Positions 1-25,861 of a stretch of DNA of 33,871 nucleotides are shown here, in pieces. Made by a program: the position numbers and the translations under genes. This stretch comes from Phycisphaerales bacterium (GTDB lineage: Bacteria > Planctomycetota > Phycisphaerae > Phycisphaerales > SM1A02). The stretch's first letter is position 1. The number at the start of each line of letters is the position of its first letter. The notes beneath the pieces are model-generated. The model made no database searches, was not told where the DNA came from, and worked only from the letters and a program-made list of their open reading frames with translations. Location of the stretch: positions 1-33,871 of the forward strand of contig JAKVBQ010000034.1 in NCBI GenBank assembly GCA_022447205.1, in the 5' to 3' direction.

Positions 1-791
1 ATGGCCAGCACGATGCCGATCGCATTCCGGACTTTCTCGAGGTGCTTGGTCACGAGGGTCCCGATGTCCTGGTGCTCGGTTCCCGTGAGCCACTGGCCGA
101 GTCGTACCCCCTCCGGAACCGCATCGGTCGCGCGACGAGCAACCTCGCGATCCGAGCACAGTGCGGCGTCGCCCATGGTGACGTGCCATGTGGCATGCGG
201 CTCTACCCGCTCGATGCGGTCGAAGCCGTCCGCTGCATCTCCGGTCGCTACGCCTGGGAGGAGGAGTTCATCACGCGCGCGGTCTGGGCCGGCTTCAAGG
301 TGCGAAGCGTCGTCATCCCGAGCATCTATGCGCCGTATGGTGAACGCAAGAGCCACTATCGTTTCGGCAGGGACTGGACCGAGGGCATCGCCGTCTACCT
401 CTGGCTGCTCCTGGTGTCGCTGCTTCCGACCCTTCGCCCCGCAGCCCTCCGTCGCAACCTGCACGGGCTCGTGCGCTTTCCGTCACTCCGGGCCGGAACG
501 GCCATGGGCGTGCGCACCGAGCGCTGCTATCTCGTCGCCTGGTGCTTCGGCATCATCGTCCTGTCGCTGCTCGCCCCCTGGCTGCCGGGAAGCTGGATCG
601 TCCTGGGCCTGATCTTCTGGGGAGGTGTCGCCTGGCACGGTTCCGCCTGGTTCGTCGCGCTGGCACTTGCGGGCTACGCACTCGGCGCGTTCGTCGGGGG
701 CGTGTACGGCCTGCTGGTGCCGGTCCTGGCGCTGGTGCTCGCGATCACGCTGCTCATGCCGGCTGGTCGACGGGTGCCTGCGACCGGATGA
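1..791 (+). CDS. Glycosyltransferase family 2, C-terminal part (cut by left edge)
   Basis: The reading frame is open from the left edge, so the true start lies outside. The first visible residues read GQHDADRIPDFLEVL, which matches the DxDGQHdP metal and nucleotide-sugar region of GT-A fold family 2 enzymes. Further on, CGMRLYPLDAV and YAWEEEFITRAVWAGFKV resemble the acceptor-site and ExE-type catalytic segments. After the catalytic part come hydrophobic stretches (for example YLWLLLVSLLP, a leucine-rich span near LVAWCFGIIVLSLLAP, and a C-terminal one), so the enzyme is probably membrane bound. It converges on the acyl ligase and overlaps it by 38 bases. Glycosyltransferases of this kind occur in aryl polyene and xanthomonadin clusters, which fits its neighbours. 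The transferred sugar and acceptor cannot be read from the sequence. Confidence 0.8.
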   Translation, partial: GQHDADRIPDFLEVLGHEGPDVLVLGSREPLAESYPLRNRIGRATSNLAIRAQCGVAHGDVPCGMRLYPLDAVEAVRCISGRYAWEEEFITRAVWAGFKVRSVVIPSIYAPYGERKSHYRFGRDWTEGIAVYLWLLLVSLLPTLRPAALRRNLHGLVRFPSLRAGTAMGVRTERCYLVAWCFGIIVLSLLAPWLPGSWIVLGLIFWGGVAWHGSAWFVALALAGYALGAFVGGVYGLLVPVLALVLAITLLMPAGRRVPATG

Positions 792-2160
792 GCTTGCCGG
801 ACGGCGTCCTCGGCAGTGCGTCGACGATCTCGATCCGTCTCGGAACCTGATGCGGGGGAAGATGCGCTCGTGCGTGTTTCCTCAGGCTTTCGAGGAAGGC
901 CGCCTCGTCACCCTCGTGATCGGGCCTCGTGACGATTCGTGCCTGGACTCGATTCACCGTCTCGCTCAGCGGCAGGGGGGAGACCATGACCTCCACGACC
1001 GCCGGGTGTTCCCGCAGGACGTCCTCGACGTCGTTCGGATTGACCTTGAGTCCACCCACGTCGAACTGGAGTCGTGCGCGGCCGATGAGTTCAACGGTGC
1101 CGTCCTCCTCGATGCGTGCGAGGTCCCCGGTCAGGAACCAGCCTTCGGCGATGCGCTCCCGACAGGGTGCCGTCTCGGAATCGTCCAGGTATCCGACGAA
1201 CATCGCATCGCTCCTGACCATCAGTTCCCCGTCATCGGCGAGTTGCACGTCGACGCCACGGACCGGCGTCGTGCGTCCGTCGAAGCCCCAGGTGATCGTC
1301 CCGACTTCCGACGCGCCGTAGAGGTCGCCGACCTTGACGCCCCAGACCGATTCGAAGCGTTCCCGGGTCGCCACCGGAAGCGGACTGCCCGCGGTGTAGG
1401 CCAGTCGGAGCGAGGTGCTCGGGACGGGACTCGATGCGAGCGCGTCGATCGTCGGAGGAACGGCGGGAAGCACCGTCGCGTCGGAGACCAGCCGTTCCGT
1501 CGCGACGTCGATCTCGAGCTTCGGCATCTGGATGACTTCCGAACCCGCGAGGATCGGAAGCATCACCGCATGTTCGATGCCATAGGCATGGTGCATCGGC
1601 AGTGCGGAGAGGACCCGGTCCTCTTCGGTCAGTCCGATGGTCGCGTGGAGCGTTGCGGCCACGCGGTCGATCGCAAGAGCCTCGCGCAGGCTGACCCTGG
1701 GACGACCGATCGTGCCGGAACTCTGGAGGAGCAGGGAGGCGTGTTCGCCCCGATCCAGGGTGCCGAGTTGCTCACTCGGTTCGAAGCTCGCCTCGAGGAT
1801 CGGGAGGTGCGACCGTCCGGTCGGTTCGTGCCCGGCCTCGGTGACGATCCGTGCACCGGGGCGGTGCGCGTTGATGAGTCCCAGGACGTCCGCTTCGTTG
1901 AGGGGGCCGATGGGCAGGGCCCTTCGGCCGCTCCCCCAGATCGCGAGCACGGCCGCATGGAATCCCGCACCCGAGGGTCCCTGCACCAGGATCGTCGCCC
2001 CTGCCTCGGTCGTTCGGTCGAGTTCCGCGGCAAGTCGACGGGCTTCGGTGATGACGTCCGCGCGCGTGCGCATACGATCACCTGCCGCGCTTCTCACTGC
2101 CGTTCTCGTGGGATCGATGCGGGCCTGTTCGAGTGCCCGCTCGATCAGCGCCCTCGCCAT
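754..2160 (-). CDS. Acyl/aryl-activating AMP-forming ligase
   Basis: This is a 468-residue member of the ANL adenylating superfamily and probably activates an aryl or fatty acid for loading on the cluster's carrier protein. Visible core motifs are a P-loop-like SSGTIGRPR at 147-155, YGASE at 281-285, WFLTGDLA around 341-348 with the invariant Asp, the hinge region IGRARLQFDVGGLKVNPNDV near 359-378, and PSGK with the catalytic Lys456 near the C-terminus. The P-loop is unusual: the normal TSGTTGxPKG has lost its Lys and final Gly. I chose the ATG at 2160 because the frame upstream encodes arginine-rich shadow sequence and because this start overlaps the halogenase stop by 16 bases. It is the last gene of the operon. 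By context it most likely activates the hydroxybenzoate made by the chorismatase; that substrate is an inference. Confidence 0.85.
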   Translation of the reverse strand: MARALIERALEQARIDPTRTAVRSAAGDRMRTRADVITEARRLAAELDRTTEAGATILVQGPSGAGFHAAVLAIWGSGRRALPIGPLNEADVLGLINAHRPGARIVTEAGHEPTGRSHLPILEASFEPSEQLGTLDRGEHASLLLQSSGTIGRPRVSLREALAIDRVAATLHATIGLTEEDRVLSALPMHHAYGIEHAVMLPILAGSEVIQMPKLEIDVATERLVSDATVLPAVPPTIDALASSPVPSTSLRLAYTAGSPLPVATRERFESVWGVKVGDLYGASEVGTITWGFDGRTTPVRGVDVQLADDGELMVRSDAMFVGYLDDSETAPCRERIAEGWFLTGDLARIEEDGTVELIGRARLQFDVGGLKVNPNDVEDVLREHPAVVEVMVSPLPLSETVNRVQARIVTRPDHEGDEAAFLESLRKHARAHLPPHQVPRRIEIVDALPRTPSGKLIRSQAPVDQPA

Positions 2161-3518
2161 GAGGCCTTCAATCCGTCGTCTTTCCCGTTGATGACGCCTT
2201 CGAACGGCGAATCGAAGCTGATGCCTGCCATGGTCAGCATCGAATGGGGACGTCGCTTGCCGACGATCGGGATGCGACTGTGGAATGCCGCCATGACCAT
2301 GAGCATCTCCCAGCGCCACCGAACCCGGAAGGGGATCGTGGGGAAGACGCCGCCGGCGAGCATCGTGATCAGCGCGCGATGGGTCTCCATCGGGCCCTTG
2401 CCTTCGATCACCAGTTCACGGAAGGAGTGGTTGTAGAAGCTGCCGATCAGCTTGAGGAAGGTGTTGCGGTGTCGCTTCAGCCACTTGTGGTGTCGTCGTT
2501 CGGCGCGCTTCGAGGAGAGTCGGCCCTCGAGGACGGCATTCAGGAGCTGTCCCGCGTGCCGACCGCCCAGCATGCCGAGGGTCGCGCCGGTGGACCAGAC
2601 CGGATCGACGAACGCCGCGGCGTCGCCAACGAGGAAGTACCCGTCACCTGCGTAGGGTGCGCAGGTGTATGAGAAGTCGGAGATCACCTGATTGGTCTCC
2701 GGTCCGACCGCGTTCGCCATGCGTTCCGCGATCACCGGGCAGTTCCGGATGCACCACTGCAGCCGCTCGTTCGCCGGGACATCGATCTTCCTGGCGATCC
2801 TGCTGTCGACGACGACTCCGACGCTCGTGGTCTTCTCGTCGAGCGGGATCAACCAGAACCAGCCTTCTCGACACATGATCACCGATGCGAAACCGACCCG
2901 GTCCCCGCTCGGCCTGACCACGTTCTCGAAGTGCTCGAAGTAGGCGATGTTCTTGTATTCCTCCATGATCTTGCGGGTCTTCATCGCCCGGCCGAGGAGG
3001 GAGGCCTGGCCCGATGCATCGATCACGTGACGGGCGCGGACCTCGGAGCCGTCCTCCAGTCTGAGCCTGACGTCACCGGCGGTCAGGTTCTCGATTGCAC
3101 GAACCCCGTTCCCGCTCGAGATCTCGGCACCGCGTTCGGTCGCCGCGTCGAGGAGCATCTTGTCGAAGATCGAACGGCGCATGTTGAACGCCTGGTGCTC
3201 CGACTTGACCATCACGTCCTCGAACGAGATTCGCGTGAGGTCCGCCCGTCCGTCACCGAAGCCGATCTCGATCCCGAGCTTGACCCAGTGCGGGTGGGAC
3301 CGGAGTTGTTCCTCGAGGCCCATCTCCTGGAGCAGCTCCAGGGTCTTGGGCAGGAAGGATTCACCGATTCGGAAGCGGGGGAATTCCTCCTTCTCGACGA
3401 TGAGCACGGAATGGCCTGCATCCGCGAGGGTGATCGCGGCCGTCGCCCCGGACGGGCCGCCGCCGATGATCGCGACATCGTGCATTCGGTCGTCGCCTGT
3501 TCCCGTCATCGTCTTCAT
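2145..3518 (-). CDS. Flavin-dependent halogenase
   Basis: A 457-residue FAD-dependent protein. The dinucleotide-binding GGGPSGATAA is at about 19-28. GESFLP at 52-57 and a lysine at 80 in HWVKLGIEIGF correspond to conserved spots of flavin-dependent halogenases, where a lysine guides hypohalous acid. The diagnostic WxWxIP motif appears as WFWLIP at 220-225. The second FAD segment reads FLVGDAAAFVDPVWSTG at 295-311, and the DPxxSTG part is typical of halogenases and helps separate them from plain monooxygenases. The start at 3518 forms an ATGA overlap with the stop of the chorismatase, which indicates translational coupling. Xanthomonadins are halogenated aryl polyenes, so halogenation of the aryl head or the chain fits. 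Whether the enzyme uses chloride or bromide, and free or carrier-bound substrate, is not visible. A geranylgeranyl-reductase-like oxidoreductase is the main alternative. Confidence 0.83.
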   Translation of the reverse strand: MKTMTGTGDDRMHDVAIIGGGPSGATAAITLADAGHSVLIVEKEEFPRFRIGESFLPKTLELLQEMGLEEQLRSHPHWVKLGIEIGFGDGRADLTRISFEDVMVKSEHQAFNMRRSIFDKMLLDAATERGAEISSGNGVRAIENLTAGDVRLRLEDGSEVRARHVIDASGQASLLGRAMKTRKIMEEYKNIAYFEHFENVVRPSGDRVGFASVIMCREGWFWLIPLDEKTTSVGVVVDSRIARKIDVPANERLQWCIRNCPVIAERMANAVGPETNQVISDFSYTCAPYAGDGYFLVGDAAAFVDPVWSTGATLGMLGGRHAGQLLNAVLEGRLSSKRAERRHHKWLKRHRNTFLKLIGSFYNHSFRELVIEGKGPMETHRALITMLAGGVFPTIPFRVRWRWEMLMVMAAFHSRIPIVGKRRPHSMLTMAGISFDSPFEGVINGKDDGLKASWRGR

Positions 3519-4489
3519 GACGTTCCCGCCTTCACGACCATGGTTCCCTCGATCTCGACGAGCAGCTTGTCCCGGCAGAGTTGTGCGACCCTGAACTCGG
3601 CCGTGGTGGACGGGCCTGCGAGCTCGTTCATGATCCTCTTCCTGAGGTGGTCGAGGTGTTCCGCCTTCGGCACGTAGATCAGCATCGAGTCGAGCTTCGG
3701 GTCGTCATCCCCCTCGGTGGTCGCCCGGAGGAGTTCCTCGATGTTCCTGATCGTCTCATCGAGCTGTGCGTCGAGGTCGTCGACATGCATCGTCTCCTCG
3801 CCACGGACACTCGCGGTTCCACTGATGATGAGCATCCGATCCTCGAGGACGCCGGACACCAGTGCGCTCCTGATGAAGACCGGCGGCAGCTTGCCCCAGG
3901 TCTCCGAGTAGCGTTCGGGAAGGATCTGGCGTGGGTTGTCGACTGCTTCGACGACCACGTTCCCGCGCAGCAGGTGGAGCACCAGGTCCCGGCCCTCGTG
4001 ACCCACGCCGGAGGCGGGGGGGTAGGGATGCTCGTCATCCGGTTGTCCCTCGAATGCCTGGAACCGAGCGGCGTTGAAACTCATGTACCGGTCCTGATCG
4101 CTCTCGTCACGAGCATTGATGCCCGGAATGAAGTTCCAGATCCGGAAGATGTCCCGCTTCGGAATGCCATCGAGCAGGTCGGCGTAGGCATCCCGGGCGC
4201 GTTTGGTGAACTCCCCACCCTCCATCGATCGTGCATCGTGCAGGACGACGCGGCGATGGGTGACGTGCCCGTCGGACCATTCGGTCAGGTCGTGGTGTTC
4301 CTTCCGAAACGCCTTCGCCGGCTGGTCGTCGAGCAGTTCGCGTGCCCATCCCGGGAGATCATCCGGGGTGCCCGCCGCGTGCCAGGCCGGTGCAGGGTGA
4401 TCTGCGCACGTATTCGTGGTGTCGTCCTTCATCGTGGCGTGCGTCGGTGTCTGCATGGAGTTCGAACTGCTCATGGCCTGTGCTCGCAC
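3515..4489 (-). CDS. Chorismatase (FkbO/Hyg5/XanB2 family)
   Basis: This family hydrolyses chorismate to pyruvate plus 3-hydroxybenzoate, 4-hydroxybenzoate or a dihydrodiol acid, depending on subtype. Two family hallmarks are visible. One is RIWNFIPGIN at about 116-125 followed by RYMSFNAARFQAF, matching the RxWNyxpxIN...YxxFNxgRxxAF region. The other is the C-terminal RidA-like half with PPVFIRSAL, SGTASVRGEETMH at 223-235 and QLDETIRNIEELL. Length (324, or 319 residues from the internal ATG) is near the family norm. The frame can begin at the GTG at 4489, 5 bases after the ketosynthase stop, or at the ATG at 4474; neither has a good ribosome site. Its place between ketosynthase and halogenase suggests it supplies an aromatic starter unit. 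The subtype, and so the exact product, needs active-site comparison. Confidence 0.85.
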   Translation of the reverse strand: MRAQAMSSSNSMQTPTHATMKDDTTNTCADHPAPAWHAAGTPDDLPGWARELLDDQPAKAFRKEHHDLTEWSDGHVTHRRVVLHDARSMEGGEFTKRARDAYADLLDGIPKRDIFRIWNFIPGINARDESDQDRYMSFNAARFQAFEGQPDDEHPYPPASGVGHEGRDLVLHLLRGNVVVEAVDNPRQILPERYSETWGKLPPVFIRSALVSGVLEDRMLIISGTASVRGEETMHVDDLDAQLDETIRNIEELLRATTEGDDDPKLDSMLIYVPKAEHLDHLRKRIMNELAGPSTTAEFRVAQLCRDKLLVEIEGTMVVKAGTS

Positions 4490-4494
4490 CCAGT

Positions 4495-6672
4495 TTAGCA
4501 GGGTTCGATGACGATCAGGCCGCTCGTTCCCTGGAAGTCGGCCGCGACCACCGCGGCCGGAACGCCTTCTTCGATGGCTTCGAGCATCGACGCCAGGGGG
4601 CCGATCGCGCCCAGCTCGCTTCGATTGCCCTCGTCCTTGCTTCCGGGAGACGCGATGGCGAGTTCGATCTTGCCGATCGGGCCGGGACTCTTCGTCGTGC
4701 GTGGTGGGTGCCCTCCGGACCGTCGGAGCAGTGCGCGTCCGGCCCGAATTCGGTCACTGAGGCTGTTGCTCGAGGGCCAGGCCAGTCCGGTATCGGCGAG
4801 TCGCGCGACCACCTTCGCGTCCCGTGCACGTGCGGCCGATGCCCCTTCGAGCACGAACGCGATCGCGCCGGAGCCGACCGTCTGGGCGCTCCCATCCGGG
4901 CGGAGCAGGAGTCCCTGAAGCTCCATGACCTCCCGGATGATCGAGTGCGACTCCTCGACGCCGATGACCAGGGCGCGTTCCGCCAGTCCGTTCTGGATGC
5001 GGAGCCTGGCCAGGTGCAGCGCCTCGAGTGCCGCGGTTCGCGATCCGATGACCGTCAGCGTCGCGCCGCCGATCCCGAGTGCGAGGCTGGCCTGTGCGCT
5101 GCCGATGTTCGGCACGCTCTCGGCGAACATCAGTGGATTGCCATGTTCGATCCCGGACTCGATGAGGTCGCTGTAGTAGTCGAGCGAATACCCGATCGCG
5201 CCGTGAAACGATCCGATGAGCGCATCGGATGACGACAGTTCCTCGGTGGTCAGTTCCGCGTCATCCACGGCGAGTCGCCCGACCGCCCTGGCCAGGCAGG
5301 AGATCTGTGCGAGTCTTCTCGTCGCACGTGGGTCATCGAGTCCTTCCAGTGCGGAGTTCTCCACCGAACCTGCAAGGTCATGAAGTCCCTGCCCCGATGC
5401 CGGTCCGCTTCGTGCTCCGATGCCCGGGAGCAATGCACCGATTCCGGTCAGGACCACGTCCTCCTCCATGACCCGTCTCGTCGGGGCCGGCGTCCCCGCA
5501 CGATTGACCGTCAGGCAGGCATCCGCACCACCGAAGCCGAGCGAGAGGATCGCGAGGCGATCGACCGAGGCATTCGGTGCCTCGCCTCGAAGCAGGTTGA
5601 GTCGCGGGAAGTTCTCGGTGTCGGTCGTCCCGTCGGCGGTGGTCAGGAGCTTCGCGTCGTCGAGTGCGGTGAGACCGAGCACCAGTTCGAGCGCACCGGC
5701 TGCGCCAAGGGTGTGACCAAGCCGGCTCTTGAGCGCGGTGATCGGTGTCTTCTCGAGGTCGGTCCCGAGCGCCCTCTCGTAGGCCGCGTACTCGGCACCG
5801 TCGTTCGCGGGCGTCGCCGTGGCATGCGCGAGGATCCATCCCGGAGGTGCCTCCGTGCCCGCCGTCAGCGCACTGGCCATCGCGCGCGCCGCGCCCTTTC
5901 CTTCCGGTTGGGGCTGCGTGAGGTGGTAGGCGTCGGAACACTCGCCGGATCCGTCGAGCAGGCCCAGGATCCCGGCCTCCCGACGTTCCGCGTCATCGAC
6001 TCGTTCGAGGATCACCACGCCGTAGCCTTCGCCGACCTTCATGCCGACCCGGTCGGCCTCGAACGGCATGGTTCGATCGGGTGCGACGAGTCGGAGGCTC
6101 ATGAAGCCGCCCAGCGAGAATTCACTGATCGGGTCGTACCCGCCCGCGATCACCAGGTCCGCTTCACCGGACTCCAGCAACAGCGCGCCGTTGATGATCG
6201 CGGTGAGGCCGGAAGCACAGGCTGCGGAAAGGGAGATGGCACCGAGGGGCAGGCCGGTTCCCTCGAGGCTGTAGCGGCTGACCGAACTGTTGTTCAGTCG
6301 GGCATAGGCCTTGATGTCCTTCCTGCGCAGTCCGTCGCCGAAGTGCCTGATCCCGCCCAGGGTGGTGCCGAGGACGACTGCGGTCCTTTCCGGAAGTCTT
6401 CCGGTCCAGCCTCCATCCTCGATGGCGTCCTTGATCGCCTGCTGCAGGTACCGTTCCGCCCGATCCGGTCGACAACCGATCTTCTCGTCGAGATCGAGTG
6501 CCTGAGCGACCCTGGGATTGTCCTCCGGATGGTTCTCGAGTCCGTCGCCCTCGGAGAATCCGGTTTCGCCGGAGAGGATTCGACGCACCGCGGCATGGCG
6601 ATCGGTCCCGACCGCACAGATGGCGGAGGCTCCGGTGATCGCGATCGAGGGGGAGACTCGCGTCGACGTCAT
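4495..6672 (-). CDS. Ketosynthase fused to a ketosynthase-like chain-length-factor domain
   Basis: A 725-residue protein with two consecutive beta-ketoacyl synthase-fold halves. The first (about 5-392) has an intact triad: Cys152 in SAACASGLTA, His283 in HATATPANDG, and His320 in KSRLGHTLGAAG, with the usual GFGGADACL end. The second half (about 403-725) keeps the fold signature (VVLTGIGALLPGIG, SVPNIGSAQASLALGIGGA, LVIGVEE) but at the active-site position reads VIGSRTAAL, so the cysteine is gone. The second histidine region is reduced to GAIGPLASMLEA and GTSGLIVIEPC closes the protein. This is the pattern of a ketosynthase with its chain-length factor, which aryl polyene and type II polyketide systems usually encode as two proteins. 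The start overlaps the dehydratase stop as ATGA. The protein probably extends the ACP-bound starter by malonyl units. Confidence 0.87.
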   Translation of the reverse strand: MTSTRVSPSIAITGASAICAVGTDRHAAVRRILSGETGFSEGDGLENHPEDNPRVAQALDLDEKIGCRPDRAERYLQQAIKDAIEDGGWTGRLPERTAVVLGTTLGGIRHFGDGLRRKDIKAYARLNNSSVSRYSLEGTGLPLGAISLSAACASGLTAIINGALLLESGEADLVIAGGYDPISEFSLGGFMSLRLVAPDRTMPFEADRVGMKVGEGYGVVILERVDDAERREAGILGLLDGSGECSDAYHLTQPQPEGKGAARAMASALTAGTEAPPGWILAHATATPANDGAEYAAYERALGTDLEKTPITALKSRLGHTLGAAGALELVLGLTALDDAKLLTTADGTTDTENFPRLNLLRGEAPNASVDRLAILSLGFGGADACLTVNRAGTPAPTRRVMEEDVVLTGIGALLPGIGARSGPASGQGLHDLAGSVENSALEGLDDPRATRRLAQISCLARAVGRLAVDDAELTTEELSSSDALIGSFHGAIGYSLDYYSDLIESGIEHGNPLMFAESVPNIGSAQASLALGIGGATLTVIGSRTAALEALHLARLRIQNGLAERALVIGVEESHSIIREVMELQGLLLRPDGSAQTVGSGAIAFVLEGASAARARDAKVVARLADTGLAWPSSNSLSDRIRAGRALLRRSGGHPPRTTKSPGPIGKIELAIASPGSKDEGNRSELGAIGPLASMLEAIEEGVPAAVVAADFQGTSGLIVIEPC

Positions 6673-7097
6673 GCGTCCGCCTCATCGTGTTCGCCGACCA
6701 GCAGGCCGAGGGTGCCTTCGGCACAACGTGCCCCCTCGACGGACGCCGCCACCTCGAGGAGGTGCAGCTGGCCGATGCTTCGAATGAGCCTGGCGTCGAG
6801 TTCGATCGATGCTGGTGGGGTCACCGGAGTTCGGAAGCGCATGTCCGAGGACACCAGCATGCCGCCCGTCCGTTCCTCGCCGGGGTCCGCGGCAAGGCCC
6901 GCGGCCTGCGCGAGCGCCTCGGTGATCAGCACGCCCGGTACCAGGGGCTTGTCGGGAAAGTGACCTTCGAGGAACCACTCGTCACCCCGGACGTCCCAGC
7001 TCGCGACGACATGTTCCGGTTCCAGGGTCAGGATCCTGGAGACGAAGAGGAAGGGGCGCTGGTGTGGAAGGCGCTCGATCAGGTGATCAAGGGACAT
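6669..7097 (-). CDS. FabZ-like 3-hydroxyacyl-ACP dehydratase
   Basis: A 142-residue single hotdog-fold protein. The stretch LPHQRPFLFVSRI at 10-22 and WFLEGHFPDKPLVPGVL at 41-57 followed by ITEALAQAAG match FabZ closely. His46 in GHFP and Glu60 are the expected catalytic residues. It would remove water from the 3-hydroxyacyl-ACP to give a trans double bond. In aryl polyene pathways repeated ketosynthase, ketoreductase and dehydratase cycles without an enoyl reductase build the conjugated chain; no enoyl reductase is seen here, which is consistent. The gene is 24 bases downstream of the ACP and overlaps the ketosynthase start by 4 bases. Confidence 0.85.
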   Translation of the reverse strand: MSLDHLIERLPHQRPFLFVSRILTLEPEHVVASWDVRGDEWFLEGHFPDKPLVPGVLITEALAQAAGLAADPGEERTGGMLVSSDMRFRTPVTPPASIELDARLIRSIGQLHLLEVAASVEGARCAEGTLGLLVGEHDEADA

Positions 7098-7121
7098 GGC
7101 TCTGTTCCGTCCTGGTATCGA

Positions 7122-7400
7122 TCAGGATCCGGAAGCGTCGGGACCCATCTCGTCGACCACGAAGGCGACGAAGTGGTCGATGGTCTCCATCGACTCCTTG
7201 CCGAGCTTCTTGTTCGGGAGCTTGACGCCCAGCCGCTTCTCCACGCCGCTGACCATCATCAGCGCATCAAGTGAATCAAGGCCGAGGGTGCCGTCGAAGA
7301 GGGGGGTGTTCCGGTCGAACTGGGCATCACCCAGCTTCAGGTCCTCGCGGAGCACGACCTCCACGGTCGAGTAGATGTCTTCGGTGTGTGTGTCACTCAT
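7122..7400 (-). CDS. Acyl carrier protein
   Basis: A 92-residue acidic helical protein with the phosphopantetheine site LGLDSLDALMM, where Ser43 is the attachment point. Size and motif are typical of type II acyl carrier proteins. It lies directly upstream of the dehydratase and ketosynthase in the operon, so it is probably the carrier on which the chain is started and extended. Classical aryl polyene clusters usually contain two carriers; only this one is in the operon part visible here. A second carrier gene exists at 19929-20201 in the separate P450 locus. An 8-base palindrome TGACGTCA lies at 7415-7422 just upstream, in the 26-base gap after the permease gene. Confidence 0.92.
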   Translation of the reverse strand: MSDTHTEDIYSTVEVVLREDLKLGDAQFDRNTPLFDGTLGLDSLDALMMVSGVEKRLGVKLPNKKLGKESMETIDHFVAFVVDEMGPDASGS

Positions 7401-7426
7401 GGCGTGTGGTGTCCTGACGTCACATA

Positions 7427-8695
7427 CTAGGTTCTAGAGCGGAAGATGGCACTGGCGAGGACCAGACCCCCGATGGAGGTCCCCAGGAGAACGAGCAGGG
7501 CATGGCCGATCCGTTCGATCGCCTCCCCGATCGATTCCCCGGGGGAGACGTACCAGAGGACCTGCTGGAAGGCTTCGATCGCCCACCAGTTGAAGGCGAA
7601 TGCGCCTGCATCCTGCAGGTACCCGGGAAGCATGAAGCTCGGGACCATGCTGCCGCCCAGGGCGCTGAGGAGGAGCACGATGATCGTGGAGAGCGTCGAC
7701 TGCTGACGCCGGGTCGAGCAGGGCACGGTGACGATCAGGCCGAGTCCCGATGCGGCGGCGGCGGCGAGTGGCACCAGGCATGCCAGCTGCACCAGCTGGA
7801 CGGTCTCGGTGAAGGAGACCTTGAAGATGAACGCCGCCCAGGCAAGCATGATGATGAACTGGGCGATGCCGATGATCGTCGAGAAGTAGAACCGGCCGAG
7901 GATCATCTGGGTGGGGCTGATGCCGAGAGCGGACAGACGACCGGTCAGCCCGTTCTCCCGTTCCTCGAGGAGAGAGCCGCAGATGGTCGAGGCGGAGAAC
8001 ATCAGGAACATCATGCCGATAGCCCCGGTGTAGTAGGTCACCAGTGACTGGTCGCCCTGCTTGGTGCTCGAGGAGATCGCCTTGATCGGGATGGTGCTGG
8101 TGTTCATCGGGATCACGGTGCTGCCTTCCGGCTGGGTGCCGGTCTCGGCAGCCTTCGACAACATGGTTCTGAGCATCTTCTGTCGCTCGGTCAGCGGGCC
8201 GGCCATCTGCTCCAGAACCTCGAGTTGTCGAGCGATCAGTGCGGGAGCCAGACCTCGGCCGGCGGCCTCGAGCAGCTTGCCCTGCGCGAGTTCCGGTGCG
8301 ACCGGGTTGGAGGTGTCGTAATAGAGTTCGAGGGCGAGGGGCTTGCCTTCTTCCAGCAACGAGCTTCCGAACCCCTTCGGGATGACCACTGCTCCCGGGT
8401 AGGTGCCCTTGCGAACGATGAACATCGCCGCGTTCGAGTCGTCACCCTTGAGGGGGACCAGCTGCATGCGGTCGTTTCCGCTCTCGACGGCCTTGATCAG
8501 TGCAGCGCTCTGGATGGACTGGTCCAGATCGAGGATGCCGATCTTGATCTTGATGTTCATCCCGGACCCGAGTCCCCCGAAGGCCATGCCGAACATGGTG
8601 AGGAACGCGATCGGCACCAGGATGAACATGCCGAGCCCGAGGCGATCGCGGCGGAGCAGCTTCCACTGGATGCCGAGCACCACCAGGGTCTTCAT
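7427..8695 (-). CDS. ABC-2 type transporter permease
   Basis: A 422-residue integral membrane protein with ABC-2 permease layout: one N-terminal membrane segment (MFILVPIAFLTMFGMAF), a large extracytoplasmic domain of about 190 residues, then about five hydrophobic segments in the C-terminal half, including the family-typical LLEERENGLTGRLSALGISP loop. It probably pairs with the ATPase at 10487-11407 to export the cluster's product or its lipid-linked form. The start is the ATG at 8695 because it makes an ATGA overlap with the upstream acyltransferase stop; 17 extra codons upstream in the frame are antisense-like and unlikely to be used. Aryl polyene loci more often use an MMPL/RND-type exporter, so an ABC system here is a variation. 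Confidence 0.85.
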   Translation of the reverse strand: MKTLVVLGIQWKLLRRDRLGLGMFILVPIAFLTMFGMAFGGLGSGMNIKIKIGILDLDQSIQSAALIKAVESGNDRMQLVPLKGDDSNAAMFIVRKGTYPGAVVIPKGFGSSLLEEGKPLALELYYDTSNPVAPELAQGKLLEAAGRGLAPALIARQLEVLEQMAGPLTERQKMLRTMLSKAAETGTQPEGSTVIPMNTSTIPIKAISSSTKQGDQSLVTYYTGAIGMMFLMFSASTICGSLLEERENGLTGRLSALGISPTQMILGRFYFSTIIGIAQFIIMLAWAAFIFKVSFTETVQLVQLACLVPLAAAAASGLGLIVTVPCSTRRQQSTLSTIIVLLLSALGGSMVPSFMLPGYLQDAGAFAFNWWAIEAFQQVLWYVSPGESIGEAIERIGHALLVLLGTSIGGLVLASAIFRSRT

Positions 8696-9630
8696 GAGTC
8701 CGTCCTCTCCAGAGATTCCGGCCAGGCGTCGAAGACCATCAGCCATTGCGTCGGGTTGTTGCGCAAGGCCGTCTCGAACGCCTCCACGAAGTTCCTGACA
8801 CCAGGGTGCTCGGTGAGGTTCCGGCAGTATTCGCCGTCGAACTCGATCGGTGCCTCGACCGTGATCCTGTATTCGTCATCATGGTTCCGCCAGCAGAAGG
8901 CCGGCACCAGTGGGGAACCCGTCGTCATCGCGAGCTTGAACGGGCCGGAGGGCAGCCGGGTCTTGTGTCCGAGGAGCTCGCAGTCGAAGCCGACCTGTCC
9001 CGGCTGGACCCGGTCCGCCGGCAGCGCGACCGCCTCGTCTCGTTCCAGCGCTTCCTGCAGGGCACGCCAGGTCTCGATCCCGTCGTCGACCGCATGTTCG
9101 ATCACGCCGAGGTCCCTGCGCAGCTTCGACCGCATTCTCTCGATCGACTTGCTTGGGTCCCGGGCGTAGACCACGTGCACCTTCTTCTCCATCTGGACCA
9201 GCACCGAGGCTGCGACCTCGAAAGACCCCATGTGGGCGGTGGCGATCACGATACCGCCTCCGCGCTCCCTGCGAGCGAAGTACTGCTGGATGTTCCCGAT
9301 CGAGTTGATGTCGGCCTCGTCCTCGATCTCGTCACGGCTGCTGGCGCGGACCAGTTCCTCCGTGAACTGCTGGATCTCGCACAGGACCTCGAGACCGAAC
9401 TGACGACGATCCTCCTCGTCGTTGCCGGGCGGAAGCAGGATCCGGGCATTGCGCCGAAGCGATCTGCGGATGTCGGGTGCGCTGGCCCAGATCAGTCGGA
9501 CCAGCAGCGGACGCAGGCTTCGCAGCATTCCCGGGGCGATGCGGTAGCCGGGGCAGAGGAACCCATCGACGAGAAGTCGTTCCGCCAGGCCGAGCCGTGC
9601 GATCACATCGGTGGGAGCACTGCCCTTCAA
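8692..9630 (-). CDS. LpxL/HtrB-type lysophospholipid acyltransferase
   Basis: A 312-residue acyltransferase of the lipid A acyltransferase type. The catalytic HX4(D/E) motif appears as HMGSFE with His133 and Glu138, followed downstream by ALPADRVQ and PSGPFKLAMTTGSPLVPAFC, which match the conserved blocks of the family. It would move an acyl group from a carrier to a glycolipid or other acceptor at the inner membrane. I place the start at a TTG at 9630, which forms a TTGA overlap with the stop of the PlsC gene. The frame is open for a further 96 codons upstream, but that part lies antiparallel in content to nothing useful: it overlaps the PlsC gene and is proline- and arginine-rich shadow sequence. 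Similar acyltransferases sit in aryl polyene clusters. Confidence 0.82.
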   Translation of the reverse strand: MKGSAPTDVIARLGLAERLLVDGFLCPGYRIAPGMLRSLRPLLVRLIWASAPDIRRSLRRNARILLPPGNDEEDRRQFGLEVLCEIQQFTEELVRASSRDEIEDEADINSIGNIQQYFARRERGGGIVIATAHMGSFEVAASVLVQMEKKVHVVYARDPSKSIERMRSKLRRDLGVIEHAVDDGIETWRALQEALERDEAVALPADRVQPGQVGFDCELLGHKTRLPSGPFKLAMTTGSPLVPAFCWRNHDDEYRITVEAPIEFDGEYCRNLTEHPGVRNFVEAFETALRNNPTQWLMVFDAWPESLERTDS

Positions 9631-10490
9631 TCGAGCCTCTCCTCTTCGGCGAGTTCCACGAATCTCGTGCCGAGACGGTCGATGAACGACCGCGTCGACC
9701 CGTCCGGATCGATCTTCATCGGCTCCCCGTACCTGATGCTGACCGTGCCGGACTTCGGGAGGATCGAACCCACCGGAAGAACGGTGTTGGTCCCGCTGAT
9801 GTGGGTTGGGACCACCGGACAGCCAGACCGCTTGGCGAGCTCCGCCACGCCCAGTCGGAGCCTGCCCAGCTCGCCGCTTCGGGATCGGGTCGCTTCGGGG
9901 AAGATCACGAGGTTCCATCCCCTCGAGAGCAGGTCCTCGATCTGTTCGAGATTCGAGTAGTCACCACCGGAACGGTTGATCAGGGCGGCGTTCACCGAGC
10001 TGCGGATGAACCAGACCACGATCCTTCGCCACACGTTCTGCAGGGCCGAAAGATCCTCGCGCGGTGCGAAGAAGTCGAGACCACCGACCACCGCCGTCCT
10101 CTTCGAATGTCGGTGGGGGAGCAGGGCATGGATCGCGGGGCTGTCGAAGAGGCTCACGTGATTGCAGGCGATGATCCAGGGGGCGTCGAGCCGATCGAGT
10201 TGCTCCATGCCGGAGAGTCGGGGTCGGACCCTGAAGCCGTACCGGATCGTGAACACCATGCACTTGAAGATCGCACCGTGCAGCAGCCTGCTTGGAAGGC
10301 TGGCCGGAACCCTGGTCCGGATCTTCTTCAGCTTCGGCGTGCTCCTGCTGGTTCGCGGGTGGGCCTTTCGGGTGTTCGAGCCGGGTTCCGCCTTGGAAGG
10401 ATCCACTTCGAGGTTCGCTCGTTGATCGTCGGCTTCCCGGGTCTCCTCCCGGTTCGATCGGGTTGCACTGGTCGAGGTGATCGGGCTCAT
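9627..10490 (-). CDS. PlsC-type 1-acylglycerol-phosphate acyltransferase family protein
   Basis: A 287-residue member of the PlsC family. The block I motif HX4D is present as NHVSLFD with His111 and Asp116, and block III as FPEATRSRSG at 197-206. Before the catalytic domain there is a charged, low-complexity stretch of about 65 residues rich in Arg, Glu, Ser and Thr, which is longer than usual and has no recognisable fold. The start at 10490 forms an ATGA overlap with the ATPase stop, which is why I keep the long N-terminus. It lies next to a second, unrelated type of acyltransferase, so the operon encodes two acyl transfer steps. A role in attaching the polyene chain to a lipid is an inference from context. 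Confidence 0.84.
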   Translation of the reverse strand: MSPITSTSATRSNREETREADDQRANLEVDPSKAEPGSNTRKAHPRTSRSTPKLKKIRTRVPASLPSRLLHGAIFKCMVFTIRYGFRVRPRLSGMEQLDRLDAPWIIACNHVSLFDSPAIHALLPHRHSKRTAVVGGLDFFAPREDLSALQNVWRRIVVWFIRSSVNAALINRSGGDYSNLEQIEDLLSRGWNLVIFPEATRSRSGELGRLRLGVAELAKRSGCPVVPTHISGTNTVLPVGSILPKSGTVSIRYGEPMKIDPDGSTRSFIDRLGTRFVELAEEERLD

Positions 10491-11407
10491 GTTCCGCTCC
10501 CGCTCTTCACCAGGGCCTGGAACACCGTTTCAAACGACGTGGGACAGACCCGGACCTGTGCGGGATCGACGCCCTGCGAGGCGAGCGTCGCGATCGCCTC
10601 CGGAAGTTCCGGGGTGTCCTGGACCTCGATGGTCCGTGCGTTGGGGTTTCCCTGTCCTTCGGCACCTTCGTCGGACGCCGAGGCTCCGGAGACCGGAAGC
10701 TTGAGCACGTAGGCCGGCAGACCGGCGACTCGCCGGAGTTCGTCGAGTGCGCCTTCATAGAGCACCCTTCCCTCGCCGAGGATCGTCGCTGCATCGCAGA
10801 GGAACTCCACCTCGTCGAGCCGGTGCGTCGCGTGCAGGATCGCGGTGCCCTCCTCGCGGAGCTGTCGGAGCATCGACCAGATCGCGGCCCGGCTGAGCGG
10901 ATCGACACCGGTCGTCGGTTCGTCGAGGAGCAGGATCCTCGGATGGTTCAGGACCGCGCAACCGATGTTGAGGCGTCGCTTCATCCCGCCGGAGAGTCCC
11001 TTGACCAGATCGTGCTGTCGGTCCTTGAGCTGGACGAACTCCAGGGCTTCCTCGACGCGCTTCCTTCTCGTGGCGTGATCGAGGCCGAGCAGCTTCGAGA
11101 AGTAGGTGAGGTGTTCACGCGTGGTCAGCGTCTCGTGGAGTGCGTTGTCCTGTGGGGCGTAGCCCATCGATGCACGCCGGATCGACGGGTCGATCGCTCG
11201 TCCCTCGAATTCGATCGAACCCTCGTCGGGCCGGATCAGGCCGATCACCGATCGCAGGAGGGTGGTCTTGCCCGCACCGTTGGGGCCCACCAGGGCCATC
11301 CAGTCCCCGCGTTCGATCGTGAGGTCGACGCCGGCGAGGGCCACCCGCTGGTGGTACTTCTTCACCAGTTGCCTGATCGCGAGTGTCGGCGGTCCTGTCA
11401 CGTGCAT
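10487..11407 (-). CDS. ABC transporter ATP-binding protein
   Basis: The nucleotide-binding subunit of an export ABC system. Walker A is GPNGAGKT at 41-48, the Q-loop YAPQD follows near 83, the signature LSGGMKRRL starts at 138, Walker B ILLLDEPTTGVDP at 158-170, and the switch His is in HATH near 195. After the ATPase core there is a C-terminal extension of about 85 residues, common in drug-exporter ATPases of the DrrA/CcmA group. The ATG at 11407 is preferred because the recognisable fold begins just after it; in-frame starts at 11449 and 11506 are possible. It is the first gene of the ten-gene operon, so the operon promoter should lie in the 233 bases upstream. Its partner is the permease at 7427-8695, three genes downstream. 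Confidence 0.88.
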   Translation of the reverse strand: MHVTGPPTLAIRQLVKKYHQRVALAGVDLTIERGDWMALVGPNGAGKTTLLRSVIGLIRPDEGSIEFEGRAIDPSIRRASMGYAPQDNALHETLTTREHLTYFSKLLGLDHATRRKRVEEALEFVQLKDRQHDLVKGLSGGMKRRLNIGCAVLNHPRILLLDEPTTGVDPLSRAAIWSMLRQLREEGTAILHATHRLDEVEFLCDAATILGEGRVLYEGALDELRRVAGLPAYVLKLPVSGASASDEGAEGQGNPNARTIEVQDTPELPEAIATLASQGVDPAQVRVCPTSFETVFQALVKSGSGT

Positions 11408-11640: not shown

Positions 11641-13971
11641 ATGCCTGCGAACACTTCATCTTCAATACGCTGTCTTGCGTCCATGTCGATCCTCGCCGCC
11701 AGCTTCTGCGCGCAAGGGATGGACCTGATCGACGTTCCCGAGGACTTCCCCACGATCCAGGCCGCAGTGGATGCACTCCCGGACGCCGGTCCCCTGGGCA
11801 CCATCTACCTTGCGCCCGGCGTCTACAACGAGAACCTCGATCTCACCGGCAAGAACGTGACCATCGTCGGCAATCCCTTCGATCCCGAGCAGGTGGTCAT
11901 CGACGGTTTCGGTGGCCAGTCGACCATCGGTATCGGGAGCTTCGAGGGCGAGGATTGCCTCGTCTCGTTGCTGGGGGTCACCATCATCGGGGGTTCGGGC
12001 TTTCCGCATGCAATCACGGGCCATACCTACGGAGGTGGCCTGCGGCTCGACCCGGGCACCTCGGCCCAGCTCTGGAGTTCGGTCGTTCGTGACAATCATG
12101 CCTGGTACGGGGGTGGCATCTATGCGAACAGCCAGTCCCGTCTTGAACTGCACAACTCCTTCGTCACCGGAAATCATGGTGAGTACAAGGGTGGAGGCCT
12201 GATGGCGCTCGGGAGCCTCGTGGTCGATGGATGCACCTTCGTGCAGAACCAGTCGTTCATGGGGGGGCACATCTGCATGGAGGGTCGATACACCTCGGTA
12301 TTGATCGAGGACAGCACGTTCAGGAACGGGCTTGCCCTCTTCCAGGAGACGCTTGCGAAAACTGGCCATCGTTCCGTCGGTGGCGCGATCGCGTCCCAGA
12401 ACTCCCACGGAAGCGTGACGATTCGCCGGTGTGACTTTGACAGGAACATCAGTGCCTGGGCAGGTGGAGCGATCGGTTTCCTGCCTTTCAGCCCCTTCCA
12501 ACTCGAGTCCTGTGAGGATCAGGCGTTCCCGTGTGCCGATGGACGGCCGATGGTCGAGGACTGCACCTTCACGAACTGCCTGGCCTCCGCCGGTGCAGGC
12601 ATCGCCTGGAACCAGCTTGGGGGAATCGATGCTGGTCGGCTCGTGTTCGACACCTGCGTGGCTTCGACCGGTGGTGGGTTCCATGCCCTGCGTGGTGAGC
12701 ATGTTCTCGAGGACTGCACCTTCGTGAACTGCGCCACGACCCATGCCGGCCGTGGTGGGGGCATCGCCTGTGAAGCGGGCTCCCTCCAGATGACCGGATC
12801 CACCTTCGATGCCTGCATGGCGCATGGAGGCGCCGGTGGCGGACTCTTCCTCGTGGATGCCGTCCTCGCCATGAGTGACTGCAGGTTCCTGGGCAACGAG
12901 TCGGAGGCGCCAGGTTGCGCGCTGCATGCGGTTCGCAGTTCGGTGGGCGACCAGTACTCCGAGTTCCGCGATCACGTCGCATCGACCGCCGTCTTCATGG
13001 ACATGGAGTCGATGTCCGGGACGTCCGAGTTCAACCGCACGCTGTTCCAGGACAACGGTCGTTTCGCCGACACCGCTCACGGTGCGGTCCTGCTCCAAGC
13101 CGATCCGGCGGAGGGCGGTGCCCCGCAGTCGCTGTGTCGATTCACCACCTGCACGTTCGAAGGAAACGAATCATCCGCTGATGGGGGTGCGATCCGTTCG
13201 CTCGGCATGGATGTCGACGTCAAGGCCGGGACATTCCGCTCGAACAGCACCATGGGTGGTCTCGCCGATGGCGGTGCGATCAGCATCGAGGATGCCGCGA
13301 TCTCGATCGCCCTGGCGGAGTTCGACCGGAACACTTCCGGTCGAGACGGTGGCGCGATCCAGCTCGTTCGGGCGCAGTGCGTGGTTCGTGGTTGCTCTTT
13401 CAGCGGCAACCGTGCGAATGACTACGGGGGTTCGATCGAGAGCATCCTCGATTCAGTGCTCGTGGTCGAGCATTCCGACTTCACCGGAGGCCCCGGACTC
13501 ACCGCCCGCTACGGTGGTGCGATCGACATCGATGGTTCCGCGGGACCGGCCTGGTTCTACGGCCTCGAGGTCTCGGGTTGTTCCGTCGAACACCTCGGAG
13601 GTGGCGTGTATTCGGATGGACCGGACACGCGATTCTCCCGGTCCCGAATCAGCGGGAACACCGCCTGGAACGGAGGGGGACTCGGCACGAGTGTCCATGC
13701 CGGTCTCGTCGAGCAGTCCCGTATCTGCGGCAACACCGTCGGGCAGATCATCGGTCCCTGGGAGGATGGTGGCGGGAACGTGGTCGCCGAGGTCTGCTGT
13801 GATGCCGACCTCGATGGTGACGGTCGGGTGGATGGTGCGGACCTGACCATGCTCCTCTCCGAATTCGGAAGTGACGGTACGGGTGTCTTCGGTTCCGACA
13901 TGGATGGAGACGGCAGGGTGGATGGAAGTGACCTGACCATGCTGCTGGGGGTGTGGGGTGGGTGCGACTGA
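11641..13971 (+). CDS. Secreted right-handed beta-helix protein with dockerin-like C-terminus
   Basis: A 776-residue exported protein. The N-terminus has a short signal-like stretch (SIRCLASMSILAASFCAQG). Next comes the module DVPEDFPTIQAAVDALPDAG with LAPGVYNENLDLTGKNVTIV, the N-cap seen in pectate-lyase-like parallel beta-helix and polymorphic outer membrane-like proteins. Some 20 coils follow, with recurring units such as GGGIYANS, VEDCTFTNC, LEDCTFVNCATT and GGAIRSLG, rich in cysteine at the turn C-T-F. The last about 50 residues hold two EF-hand-like repeats, DLDGDGRVDGADLTMLL and DMDGDGRVDGSDLTMLL, ending WGGCD, the dockerin-like tail of this genome. The start has a ribosome site AAGGA. 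It is probably a surface or secreted protein. No catalytic residues can be assigned and the substrate is unknown. Confidence 0.85.
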   Translation: MPANTSSSIRCLASMSILAASFCAQGMDLIDVPEDFPTIQAAVDALPDAGPLGTIYLAPGVYNENLDLTGKNVTIVGNPFDPEQVVIDGFGGQSTIGIGSFEGEDCLVSLLGVTIIGGSGFPHAITGHTYGGGLRLDPGTSAQLWSSVVRDNHAWYGGGIYANSQSRLELHNSFVTGNHGEYKGGGLMALGSLVVDGCTFVQNQSFMGGHICMEGRYTSVLIEDSTFRNGLALFQETLAKTGHRSVGGAIASQNSHGSVTIRRCDFDRNISAWAGGAIGFLPFSPFQLESCEDQAFPCADGRPMVEDCTFTNCLASAGAGIAWNQLGGIDAGRLVFDTCVASTGGGFHALRGEHVLEDCTFVNCATTHAGRGGGIACEAGSLQMTGSTFDACMAHGGAGGGLFLVDAVLAMSDCRFLGNESEAPGCALHAVRSSVGDQYSEFRDHVASTAVFMDMESMSGTSEFNRTLFQDNGRFADTAHGAVLLQADPAEGGAPQSLCRFTTCTFEGNESSADGGAIRSLGMDVDVKAGTFRSNSTMGGLADGGAISIEDAAISIALAEFDRNTSGRDGGAIQLVRAQCVVRGCSFSGNRANDYGGSIESILDSVLVVEHSDFTGGPGLTARYGGAIDIDGSAGPAWFYGLEVSGCSVEHLGGGVYSDGPDTRFSRSRISGNTAWNGGGLGTSVHAGLVEQSRICGNTVGQIIGPWEDGGGNVVAEVCCDADLDGDGRVDGADLTMLLSEFGSDGTGVFGSDMDGDGRVDGSDLTMLLGVWGGCD

Positions 13972-17401: not shown

Positions 17402-18643
17402 ATGGCCGGTCCCACCCACGACTTCCTGCAACCTTTCGAGCGCATCCAGCGGCTCATGGACAGTGAGCCGGGTGAGCAGGGAGGGAGGCGGGTGATCCTC
17501 ATCAATGATCCCGCCGATGTCCAGACCGTGATGCATTCCCCTGTGATCGTCCGCAACGAGACGATGCGCGCCCTGGCCGGTGACGGGCTGATCTTCTCCG
17601 ACGGTGACAAGTGGAGGGAACGTCGGCGGGCGATGCAGCCATCCTTCCCGCCGAGTGATCCCGAACGGCACGCTCCCGAGGTCGAGTGGGCGGTGGCGGG
17701 CCTCATGTCCCGGCTCGAACGGATCGCGGGGACCGGGGAGACGTTCCTCCTGCTCGAGGAGATGCTTCGTTTCACCACCCGACTCATCTACCGTGTCGCC
17801 TTCGGAATCGAACTGTCCGTCGATCACGACAAGGCGCCGATGCTGATCAGGTTCTTCGATTCCGCGGGCGAGACCTCGATGGCCTTCATCGATTCCCGTT
17901 CCCCCCTCGACATCAACGCGATGCGCCAGTTCCAGGACGCACGTCGCGATCTGGACGAGGAGATCGAGTCGATCATCGATCATGGACGGCGGTCCGGCGT
18001 CGGGGCGGACCACGTGCTCGGAGTCCTGCTCGGCAAGTCGAGCGAAGAGCCTGACTTCACGGAGGAGGATGTCCGGGACGAGATCCGCACCCTGCTCCTC
18101 GCGGGTGCGGAGACCACCTCGAACGTGCTGACCTGGCTCTTCCTGCTCCTTGATGCGCACCCCGACGAGCGGGATGTGATCGAGGCCGAGCTGGACGAGG
18201 CAGCGACGAACGACCGACTCCGGTCGGCGATCCTCGAGACGATGCGGCTCTTCCCACCGGTCTGGTTCATCTCGCGCAAGGCGATCGGGTCGGTCTCCGT
18301 CTCGGGACATGACTTCGAGGAAGGTGACTGGGCGTTCCTCTGCACCTATCTCGTCCAGAGGAATCCCGACTACTGGGAGCGGCCCAACGACTTCGTCCCC
18401 GATCGGTTCGCACCCGGGTACGAGCTTCCGCATCGTTATGCCTGGTTCCCCTTCGGCGGTGGACGGCATCTCTGTCTGGGGAAGGCGCTCGGCGAGCTGG
18501 AGACGTTCGTCGCGGCCCGCCGGATCATGCATTCCTTCCGGCTGGTCCGGGCGGACGACGACCCGCTGCCGCCGCGCATCGGGCTCGTGCTCAAGCCCTG
18601 CCACGACGTTCCGATGCTGGTCGAGGAGCGAACTCGTGGTTGA
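17402..18643 (+). CDS. Cytochrome P450 (first of tandem pair)
   Basis: A 413-residue soluble P450. The C-helix WxxxR is W71...R75, the I-helix oxygen-activation motif is AGAETTS at 234-240, the K-helix ExxR is ETMR at 279-282, and the haem loop is FGGGRHLCLG at 351-360 with Cys358 as the iron ligand. All key elements are intact. No membrane anchor precedes the fold. The ATG at 17402 follows the upstream terminator by only 50 bases; TAGCAT just before it could be a -10 element, which would give a very short leader. It is a close paralogue of the next gene, sharing phrases such as DHDKAP, AGxETTS and TMRLFP. No ferredoxin or reductase gene is nearby. With a carrier protein close by, a carrier-bound substrate is a reasonable guess. 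Confidence 0.92.
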   Translation: MAGPTHDFLQPFERIQRLMDSEPGEQGGRRVILINDPADVQTVMHSPVIVRNETMRALAGDGLIFSDGDKWRERRRAMQPSFPPSDPERHAPEVEWAVAGLMSRLERIAGTGETFLLLEEMLRFTTRLIYRVAFGIELSVDHDKAPMLIRFFDSAGETSMAFIDSRSPLDINAMRQFQDARRDLDEEIESIIDHGRRSGVGADHVLGVLLGKSSEEPDFTEEDVRDEIRTLLLAGAETTSNVLTWLFLLLDAHPDERDVIEAELDEAATNDRLRSAILETMRLFPPVWFISRKAIGSVSVSGHDFEEGDWAFLCTYLVQRNPDYWERPNDFVPDRFAPGYELPHRYAWFPFGGGRHLCLGKALGELETFVAARRIMHSFRLVRADDDPLPPRIGLVLKPCHDVPMLVEERTRG

Positions 18644-21533: not shown

Positions 21534-21836
21534 TGGCGTCTGCTCACTCTTTCGCCGCTGTCCGGTGCGTTCACCGGTGTCCGAACGCCGCCATGGTATG
21601 CGCGAAGTCACGGTGCCGTCGATCCGACACGCCCGGAAACGCGTCGATAACCCCGACGTTGCGGGTCGTGCGGTCTGGAGTTGTCGCCAGTCCCGGTCCT
21701 TTGCCGAATGGCCTTGCTGGCGCCTTCGGATCAGGTATCTAGAGGGCGGGAGGCATTCCCCCGAAATCCCTGGAGTCCGGCCTGCGGATGGCAGGCCGAT
21801 ATCGACCGATCCGGAAACCGTCCCTCGATCCGACCC
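21534..21836. promoter_or_regulatory. Divergent intergenic region between P450 and thioesterase-like gene
   Basis: This 303-base gap should contain promoters for the minus-strand P450/carrier unit and the plus-strand thioesterase-like gene. I found no convincing promoter pair, ribosome site or hairpin in it. It codes for nothing recognisable on either strand, although shadow frames cross it. Confidence 0.35.
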
Positions 21837-24492: not shown

Positions 24493-24504
24493 CGAATTCT
24501 CCAT

Positions 24505-25837: not shown

Positions 25838-25861
25838 TTTCGACGGCCTGCCCGATTCGGT

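Follow-up and report, generated by a model that had tools for sequence, protein, structure and literature searches.

The DNA analysed here, contig C28 at its entire length of 33,871 bases (hereafter the window), carries a ten-gene operon which we consider fairly likely to direct the biosynthesis of a halogenated aryl-polyene-like lipid. The contig belongs to a genome of 86 contigs and 3.25 Mb, 95% complete, whose Phycisphaerae-type origin, surmised in an earlier note on the bare sequence, is supported. That note had also seen in the locus the logic of a xanthomonadin-like pigment, and several parts of this logic are retained in our prediction, namely the hydroxybenzoate starter, its loading onto an acyl carrier protein (ACP), the ketosynthase (KS), chain-length factor (CLF) and FabZ-like dehydratase, and the halogenase. 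Nevertheless, the locus is a variant that differs from true xanthomonadin loci: a search found no ketoreductase (KR), the CLF is fused to the KS and is not of the ApeC kind, and ATP-binding cassette (ABC) transporter genes are present without the LolA/MMPL set. The affinity of the KS to those of aryl polyene loci is weakly supported. Gene content, active-site residues, operon layout, the conserved association of the genes, the KS-CLF fusion and the negative KR and LolA searches were observed directly; every reaction, the polyene and the colour are predicted from this sequence evidence.

Clusters with a fused KS-CLF were found on 40 distinct contigs, all the titled ones being planctomycete except L095 ('uncultured bacterium'; L and G numbers are ours, for loci and genomes), and the recurrence of the same gene set on them rules out chance. 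As the relatives were found through the chorismatase, its presence (39 of 39) is by selection, but an LpxL-type acyltransferase is present on 34 of 39 contigs, FabZ on 32, the flavin-dependent halogenase-type enzyme (FDH) and the AMP-dependent ligase on 31 each and an ACP on 23, several of the contigs being short and some ACPs, fused to FabZ, being counted under FabZ. When the chorismatase was sought in 298 genomes from the same class, 75 matched at E <= 0.001 and 22, the window's genome included, reached 1e-20; 20 stretches, 49 named loci of one wide scan and some later loci were mapped. Fifty KS-CLF loci minus 11 duplicates (L066, L090, L074, L080, L087, L092, L098, L088, L097, L100 and L096) gave 39, to which L159 was added; L160 is L107 again, and L069 and L076 are near-copies from one metagenome-assembled genome (MAG). 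The fullest sets, in families f10, f18, f2 and f4, comprise ACP, FabZ, LolA, LpxL-type acyltransferase, KS-CLF, chorismatase, halogenase, AMP ligase, a small protein without Pfam match and MMPL, and those of f18 additionally carry an ABC pair and a family-2 glycosyltransferase (GT2).

The operon and its predicted pathway

All the genes named by the earlier note at positions 1-11407 are there, as judged from Pfam and, for GT2, from a close ortholog; an ABC ATPase and a permease, unnamed in that note, lie inside the same span. The ten genes of the operon are given below in order of transcription, followed by GT2 (ORF, open reading frame).

10487..11407, minus strand: ABC transporter ATP-binding subunit, first gene of the operon (TIGR01188, 211 bits, under the family cut-off of 312; ORF open to 11506)
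9627..10490, minus strand: PlsC-type acyltransferase (PF01553 Acyltransferase, 3.6e-17)
8692..9630, minus strand: LpxL-type lipid acyltransferase (PF03279 Lip_A_acyltrans, 1.4e-23; TTG start at 9630 inferred, ORF open to 9918)
7427..8695, minus strand: ABC-2 type transporter permease (PF12698 ABC2_membrane_3, 7.2e-35; ORF open to 8746)
7122..7400, minus strand: ACP (PF00550 PP-binding, 7e-8; DSLD motif)
6669..7097, minus strand: FabZ-like 3-hydroxyacyl-ACP dehydratase (PF07977 FabA-like, 1e-17; His46, Glu60)
4495..6672, minus strand: fused KS-CLF (ketoacyl-synt, 3.2e-35, plus a second stretch)
3515..4489, minus strand: FkbO/Hyg5-family chorismatase (PF21168 FkbO_Hyg5-like_N, 2.4e-16, 60 bits against a cut-off of 27; start at 4489 or 4474)
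2145..3518, minus strand: FDH (PF04820 Trp_halogenase, 1.7e-32)
754..2160, minus strand: AMP-dependent acyl ligase (PF00501 AMP-binding, 1.7e-26; PF13193 AMP-binding_C, 4.5e-14; ORF open to 2319, likely start 2160)
3..791, plus strand: GT2, C-terminal part, convergent with the operon and cut by the contig end

The operon runs from 11407 to 754 with intergenic gaps of at most 26 bases and 4-base overlaps at five joints (FDH/chorismatase, KS-CLF/FabZ, permease/LpxL, LpxL/PlsC and PlsC/ATPase, some of the starts being inferred). At its left flank the window stops at the contig end, beyond which lies the N-terminal part of GT2; the fragment has no Pfam match of its own, and is 70% identical to a complete ortholog in G255 (L032:5616-6755) that matches Glycos_transf_2 (PF00535, 4e-21).

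In the pathway that we propose, the chorismatase would convert chorismate to hydroxybenzoate, most likely 3-hydroxybenzoate, which the AMP ligase would activate and is likely to load onto the ACP, or onto coenzyme A. The fused KS-CLF would then add malonyl units, with its CLF half setting the chain length, the keto groups would be reduced by a KR acting in trans, for which the FabG whose gene adjoins that of a FabF on contig C34 is the likeliest candidate, and dehydration by FabZ with no enoyl reduction after it would yield a polyene. Halogenation of the phenol ring by the flavin enzyme would take place either before or after chain extension. Attachment of the chain to a lipid or sugar would fall to GT2 and the LpxL- and PlsC-type enzymes, and export of the product to the ABC transporter.

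Several residues on which these steps would depend are conserved. FabZ retains its catalytic His and Glu in all 34 sequences compared, of which 32 come from fused KS-CLF loci and two from Acidobacteria (L089 and L111), and the ACP its DSLD motif in 23 of 23; duplicates and short ORFs were dropped from these counts, as from that of the FDH below. In the chorismatase, Cys305 and Glu312 align with the Cys and Glu of Hyg5, FkbO having Ala at the Cys position, and the protein matches the Hyg5 structure 5ag3 at 4e-23, although the strict NCBIfam chorismatase cut-off is not reached (121 vs 325 bits). The same pair is given for the 3-hydroxybenzoate-forming Nat-hyg5 in the passages of PMC7170507 on this enzyme.

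The window has in common with the xanthomonadin/arcuflavin loci, whose chorismatase is of the XanB2 type, a starter-supplying chorismatase, AMP ligase, ACP, FabZ-like dehydratase, KS and CLF-like protein, acyltransferase, glycosyltransferase and, as regards Xanthomonas, the halogenase. By contrast with these loci, no KR was found in the cluster, KS and CLF are fused in place of a separate short CLF of the ApeC type, FabF is closer to the CLF half than ApeC is, and instead of a LolA plus MMPL-type exporter, which some relatives have, this genome showed no LolA and distant MMPL matches only. The loci of Xanthomonas, Azoarcus and Lysobacter were compared by their published descriptions, and the KR-bearing sequence comparator was L114, from a Burkholderiales MAG. 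LolA, MMPL, LPLAT, GT2, ligase, ACP, KS and dehydratase are also common to the wider planctomycete set and the aryl polyene (APE) locus of E. coli CFT073. The latter differs in possessing a KR, a second KS and a CLF that is short and encoded separately, and the portion of it that was read has neither chorismatase nor halogenase annotated. The record of this locus gives product names only, and ApeO, ApeC, ApeQ and ApeR are the names which we take its genes to bear.

The fused KS-CLF

The KS half (approximately residues 1-395) carries Cys152, His283, Lys315 and His320, and the CLF-like half (396-725) has no Cys at the matching place. Both features are invariant across 26 long sequences, the KS halves having C-H-K-H in 26 of 26 and the CLF halves being without the Cys in 26 of 26. 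A model of the fused protein, built with 23 sequences, reached a mean pLDDT of 90.6 and a pTM of 0.95, and its top Foldseek match is the KS-CLF of PfaC (PDB 6riw; TM 0.77 by query length, 885 columns, 16% identity, root-mean-square deviation (rmsd) 8.0), in which KS and CLF likewise lie in one chain. PfaC is part of a multidomain polyunsaturated fatty acid synthase and has other partners. For the KS half, the only part covered by the structure-alignment rows behind the Z scores, the best Z was 51.4, against the ishigamide KS-CLF (6kxd/6kxf; rmsd 1.9, 381 aligned), and the first FabF followed at 50.3; with the FabFs so close behind, this match is no sign of special kinship.

The KS halves form one clade with a support of 94/100 in a careful tree of 27 rows that included 15 of the 26 N halves. 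A possible origin of the fusion is suggested by G385, a planctomycete genome of another family outside the window's class (L141/L150), in which an unfused KS and a CLF-like KS accompany a chorismatase, halogenase, AMP ligase and MMPL; phmmer found no KR across its 43 kb contig, and the fused protein may have come from an unfused pair of this kind. A phylum-wide occurrence of the fused form was rejected. Among 294 genomes sampled, a chorismatase-type match at E <= 1e-10 occurred in 32, and in the stretches of nine of these, all outside the window's class, no fused KS-CLF was present, while one (G385) had an unfused KS and CLF. Our literature search, which was partial, found no published description of an aryl polyene cluster with a fused KS-CLF (no word starting 'fus' occurs in PMC10132072), and absence from print is not claimed. 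A single-chain KS-CLF could ease structural and biochemical study of chain-length control.

Evidence against a polyene and alternative products

Several observations weigh against an aryl polyene product, and the lack of a cluster KR is the main one, because deletion of the cluster's own KR abolished the pigment in Lysobacter, as described in the relevant passage of PMC3691225. Neither the window contig nor any of the 40 distinct contigs bearing a KS-CLF yielded a short-chain dehydrogenase/reductase (SDR) or KR, within the stretches examined (usually some 10 kb per side, several contigs being shorter), in phmmer searches at E <= 1e-3 with three queries: the KR of the E. coli aryl polyene locus and the FabG proteins of E. 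coli and of this genome. The positive control, L114, was matched, its KR lying beside KS and CLF, and so were L070 and L081, which have a chorismatase and no fused KS-CLF. The earlier note had advised searching the left flank for a KR, and of the two outcomes which together it held against its own proposal, this lack of a KR is the one that was found. A KR just past the cut left end was rejected, since G255, of the same genus, is without SDR in about 15 kb beyond GT2 (L032, L033), where a class-III aminotransferase, a small protein with a weak T2SSG match and an alpha/beta hydrolase are located. A second dedicated KR elsewhere in the genome was likewise rejected, only one of 12 SDR matches being clearly of the FabG type (adjoining FabF on C34), even though the remaining SDRs may still serve. 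With no KR found near the cluster, either a KR such as FabG acts in trans or no polyene is made.

The other outcome would be a chorismatase and KS falling with unrelated pathways. The clade of KS halves joined the aryl polyene KSs with a weak support of 48/77 in the 27-row tree and with 90, not starred, in a quick tree of 64 rows. The N-half profile gave 285 bits to the G385 KS, 282 to Acidobacteria L084, 277 to the genome's own FabF, 254 to E. coli FabF, 230 to L114 and 215 to the E. coli APE KS; with FabF nearly as high, these scores do not settle the affinity of the KS. Assignment of the CLF half to the ApeC kind was rejected, the profile link being weak and FabF and the G385 CLF nearer: the C-half profile gave 107 bits to the unfused G385 CLF, 72 to E. 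coli FabF, 12 to the L114 CLF and 5.6 to E. coli ApeC, and hhalign gave a two-sequence ApeC/L114 profile a probability of 88 (E 2.8e-6) and FabF one of 98 (2.2e-14). As for the chorismatase, in a quick tree (SH-aLRT only, midpoint root, Hyg5 and FkbO as partial stretches) that of the window joins those of aryl-polyene-like clusters in Acidobacteria (L084, L089, L091) and Myxococcota (L108) with SH-aLRT 96, but the same clade holds L070, L083, L105 and L111, whose surroundings showed no recognisable cluster of this kind, and excludes the Burkholderiales locus L114 with its KS, CLF and KR. The protein has the Cys and the active-site Glu of the Hyg5-type (CH-II) chorismatases, and yet does not group with Hyg5, a branch with SH-aLRT 96 separating it from Hyg5/FkbO. 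Moreover, the same Cys is present in chorismatases outside aryl-polyene-like clusters, and a passage of PMC3949708 states that alignment alone cannot predict the chorismatase reaction accurately. Finally, LolA had no match in the window's genome, the same search being positive in six of 14 controls, and MMPL matches there were distant only.

A halogenated, hydroxybenzoate-primed aryl lipid that is not a polyene, either short or saturated through FabG and FabI in trans, appears an unlikely product, which would not be a pigment. In its favour, with no KR found in the cluster, reduction would rely on fatty acid synthesis, which has an enoyl reductase too (L054 is FabI-like by look), and the LpxL and PlsC acyltransferases would suit a membrane lipid. 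On the other side, no enoyl reductase was recognised in the operon by Pfam, and about half of the relatives carry the LolA/MMPL/LPLAT/GT2 genes of the E. coli aryl polyene locus.

The assignment of the flavin enzyme determines whether the predicted polyene would be halogenated. The window FDH carries GxGxxG, Lys80 (counted from an ORF start), WFWLIP and FVDPVWSTG, and thus the GxGxxG, WxWxIP, Fx.Px.Sx.G and Lys of its family; the three motifs sought are those given for RadH in the corresponding part of PMC10377541, and Lys80 is presumably the catalytic Lys. Among 37 FDHs, nine of them from outside the fused KS-CLF list (L036, L081, L084, L089, L091, L093, L102, L114 and L141), the Lys, F..P..S.G and WxWxI are each kept in 37 and the final Pro of WxWxIP in 30. 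The best PDB matches are the halogenases 8zop, 3e1t and 3i3l (157-176 bits), and by these matches and its motifs the enzyme resembles the CmlS/CndH-type flavin halogenases, its halogenating activity being predicted. We give little credence to a hydroxylase or oxidase sharing this fold, which would leave a non-halogenated aryl polyene, since the three RadH motifs, the invariant Lys and the nearest solved structures all point to a halogenase. Nevertheless, NCBIfam also matches the monooxygenase QhpG, with CmlS far under its cut-off (204 vs 900 bits), and the flavin enzyme is missing from the stretch examined in some loci (e.g. L037, L050 and L103). A minimal type II polyketide synthase (PKS) without reduction, whose poly-keto chain from hydroxybenzoate would cyclise to an aromatic product, is very improbable: KS-CLF and ACP without KR do make up the minimal aromatic PKS set, but FabZ, which needs a reduced substrate, has intact catalytic residues in all 34 sequences, and among the Pfam matches of the window's operon there is no recognisable cyclase or aromatase.

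Exporters, distribution and neighbouring genes

The exporter genes differ among the relatives, LolA and an ABC permease each being present on 18 of the 39 fused KS-CLF contigs and MMPL on 11. The window's family, f1, has both forms, the ABC form in G000, G255, G231 and G249 (with G197 divergent) and the LolA/MMPL form in G584 and G596. These last two are also the only ones of the family's 41 genomes with LolA (PF03548; not found in the other 39), in both cases beside or inside the chorismatase cluster, a distribution by which a role of LolA as a carrier dedicated to such lipids could be cleanly tested. According to the part of PMC3949708 on these clusters, xanthomonadin-like loci share LolA, an exporter, a glycosyltransferase and an acyltransferase as conserved genes, which occur also in flexirubin loci. 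The set may be smaller, as in L050 (G149), where KS-CLF, chorismatase, FabZ, LolA, LpxL and GT2 are present and no FDH, AMP ligase or MMPL was found in the stretch examined. In L035, from G249 of the G231/G249 pair, a DUF2141 protein and a UbiE-type methyltransferase lie between PlsC and the ABC ATPase, with look-alikes in L034; these extra genes are absent from the window's operon, and the product of the L034/L035 clusters may be methylated.

More tentatively, we hypothesize that these clusters form, among the reducing type II PKSs, a separate branch particular to planctomycetes, with a PfaC-like fused KS-CLF and, for want of a KR of its own, a borrowed FabG, making halogenated aryl polyene lipids that one lineage would export by an ABC transporter without LolA/MMPL. 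Such a branch would provide a naturally occurring type II PKS whose reductive steps may rely on fatty acid synthesis, and the distribution of the clusters suggests aryl-polyene-type lipids across Phycisphaerae-type planctomycetes. The single antiSMASH arylpolyene cluster listed in PMC8882080 for Phycisphaera mikurensis, also of the Phycisphaerae, weakens the earlier note's suggestion that this pigment class had not been described in the phylum; a table of PMC11588811 has an arylpolyene cluster in one of the six genomes compared, and the portions consulted of PMC9902471 and PMC13055281 hold no passage linking an aryl polyene cluster to a planctomycete. A 2025 review (PMC12078418) lists planctomycete metabolites as five compounds or classes, all from the class Planctomycetia, and traces planctomycete colours to carotenoids; its main text has no word starting polyene, halogenase or chorismat. 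If our prediction is correct, an aryl pigment class so far without chemical detection in the phylum would be added.

Chorismatase genes were also met in other contexts. L070 belongs to a MAG titled Proteobacteria, possibly through a binning error, and its chorismatase is 43% identical to that of the window and in the same clade, with no cluster recognised nearby. A plasmid search returned 11 chorismatase records, and none of the four examined is an aryl polyene locus. The chorismatase-fold proteins of L117 and L118 (Aureibacter and Parabacteroides plasmids) group with chorismatases of other planctomycetes (L142-L149) and share a neighbourhood unlike that of the window, with SUMF1, a cytochrome or YncE-type gene and a dihydroxyacetone kinase subunit.

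Outside the operon, the window contains three cytochrome P450 genes near one another, at 17402-18643 and 18707-19918 on the plus strand and 20232-22175 on the minus strand (PF00067, 5.7e-48 to 7.3e-52), none of them above an NCBIfam cut-off. Right-handed beta-helix proteins are encoded at 11641-13971, 22945-27319 and 30669-33014, the first terminating in a dockerin-like repeat and the last having a weak match to a GC-type dockerin.

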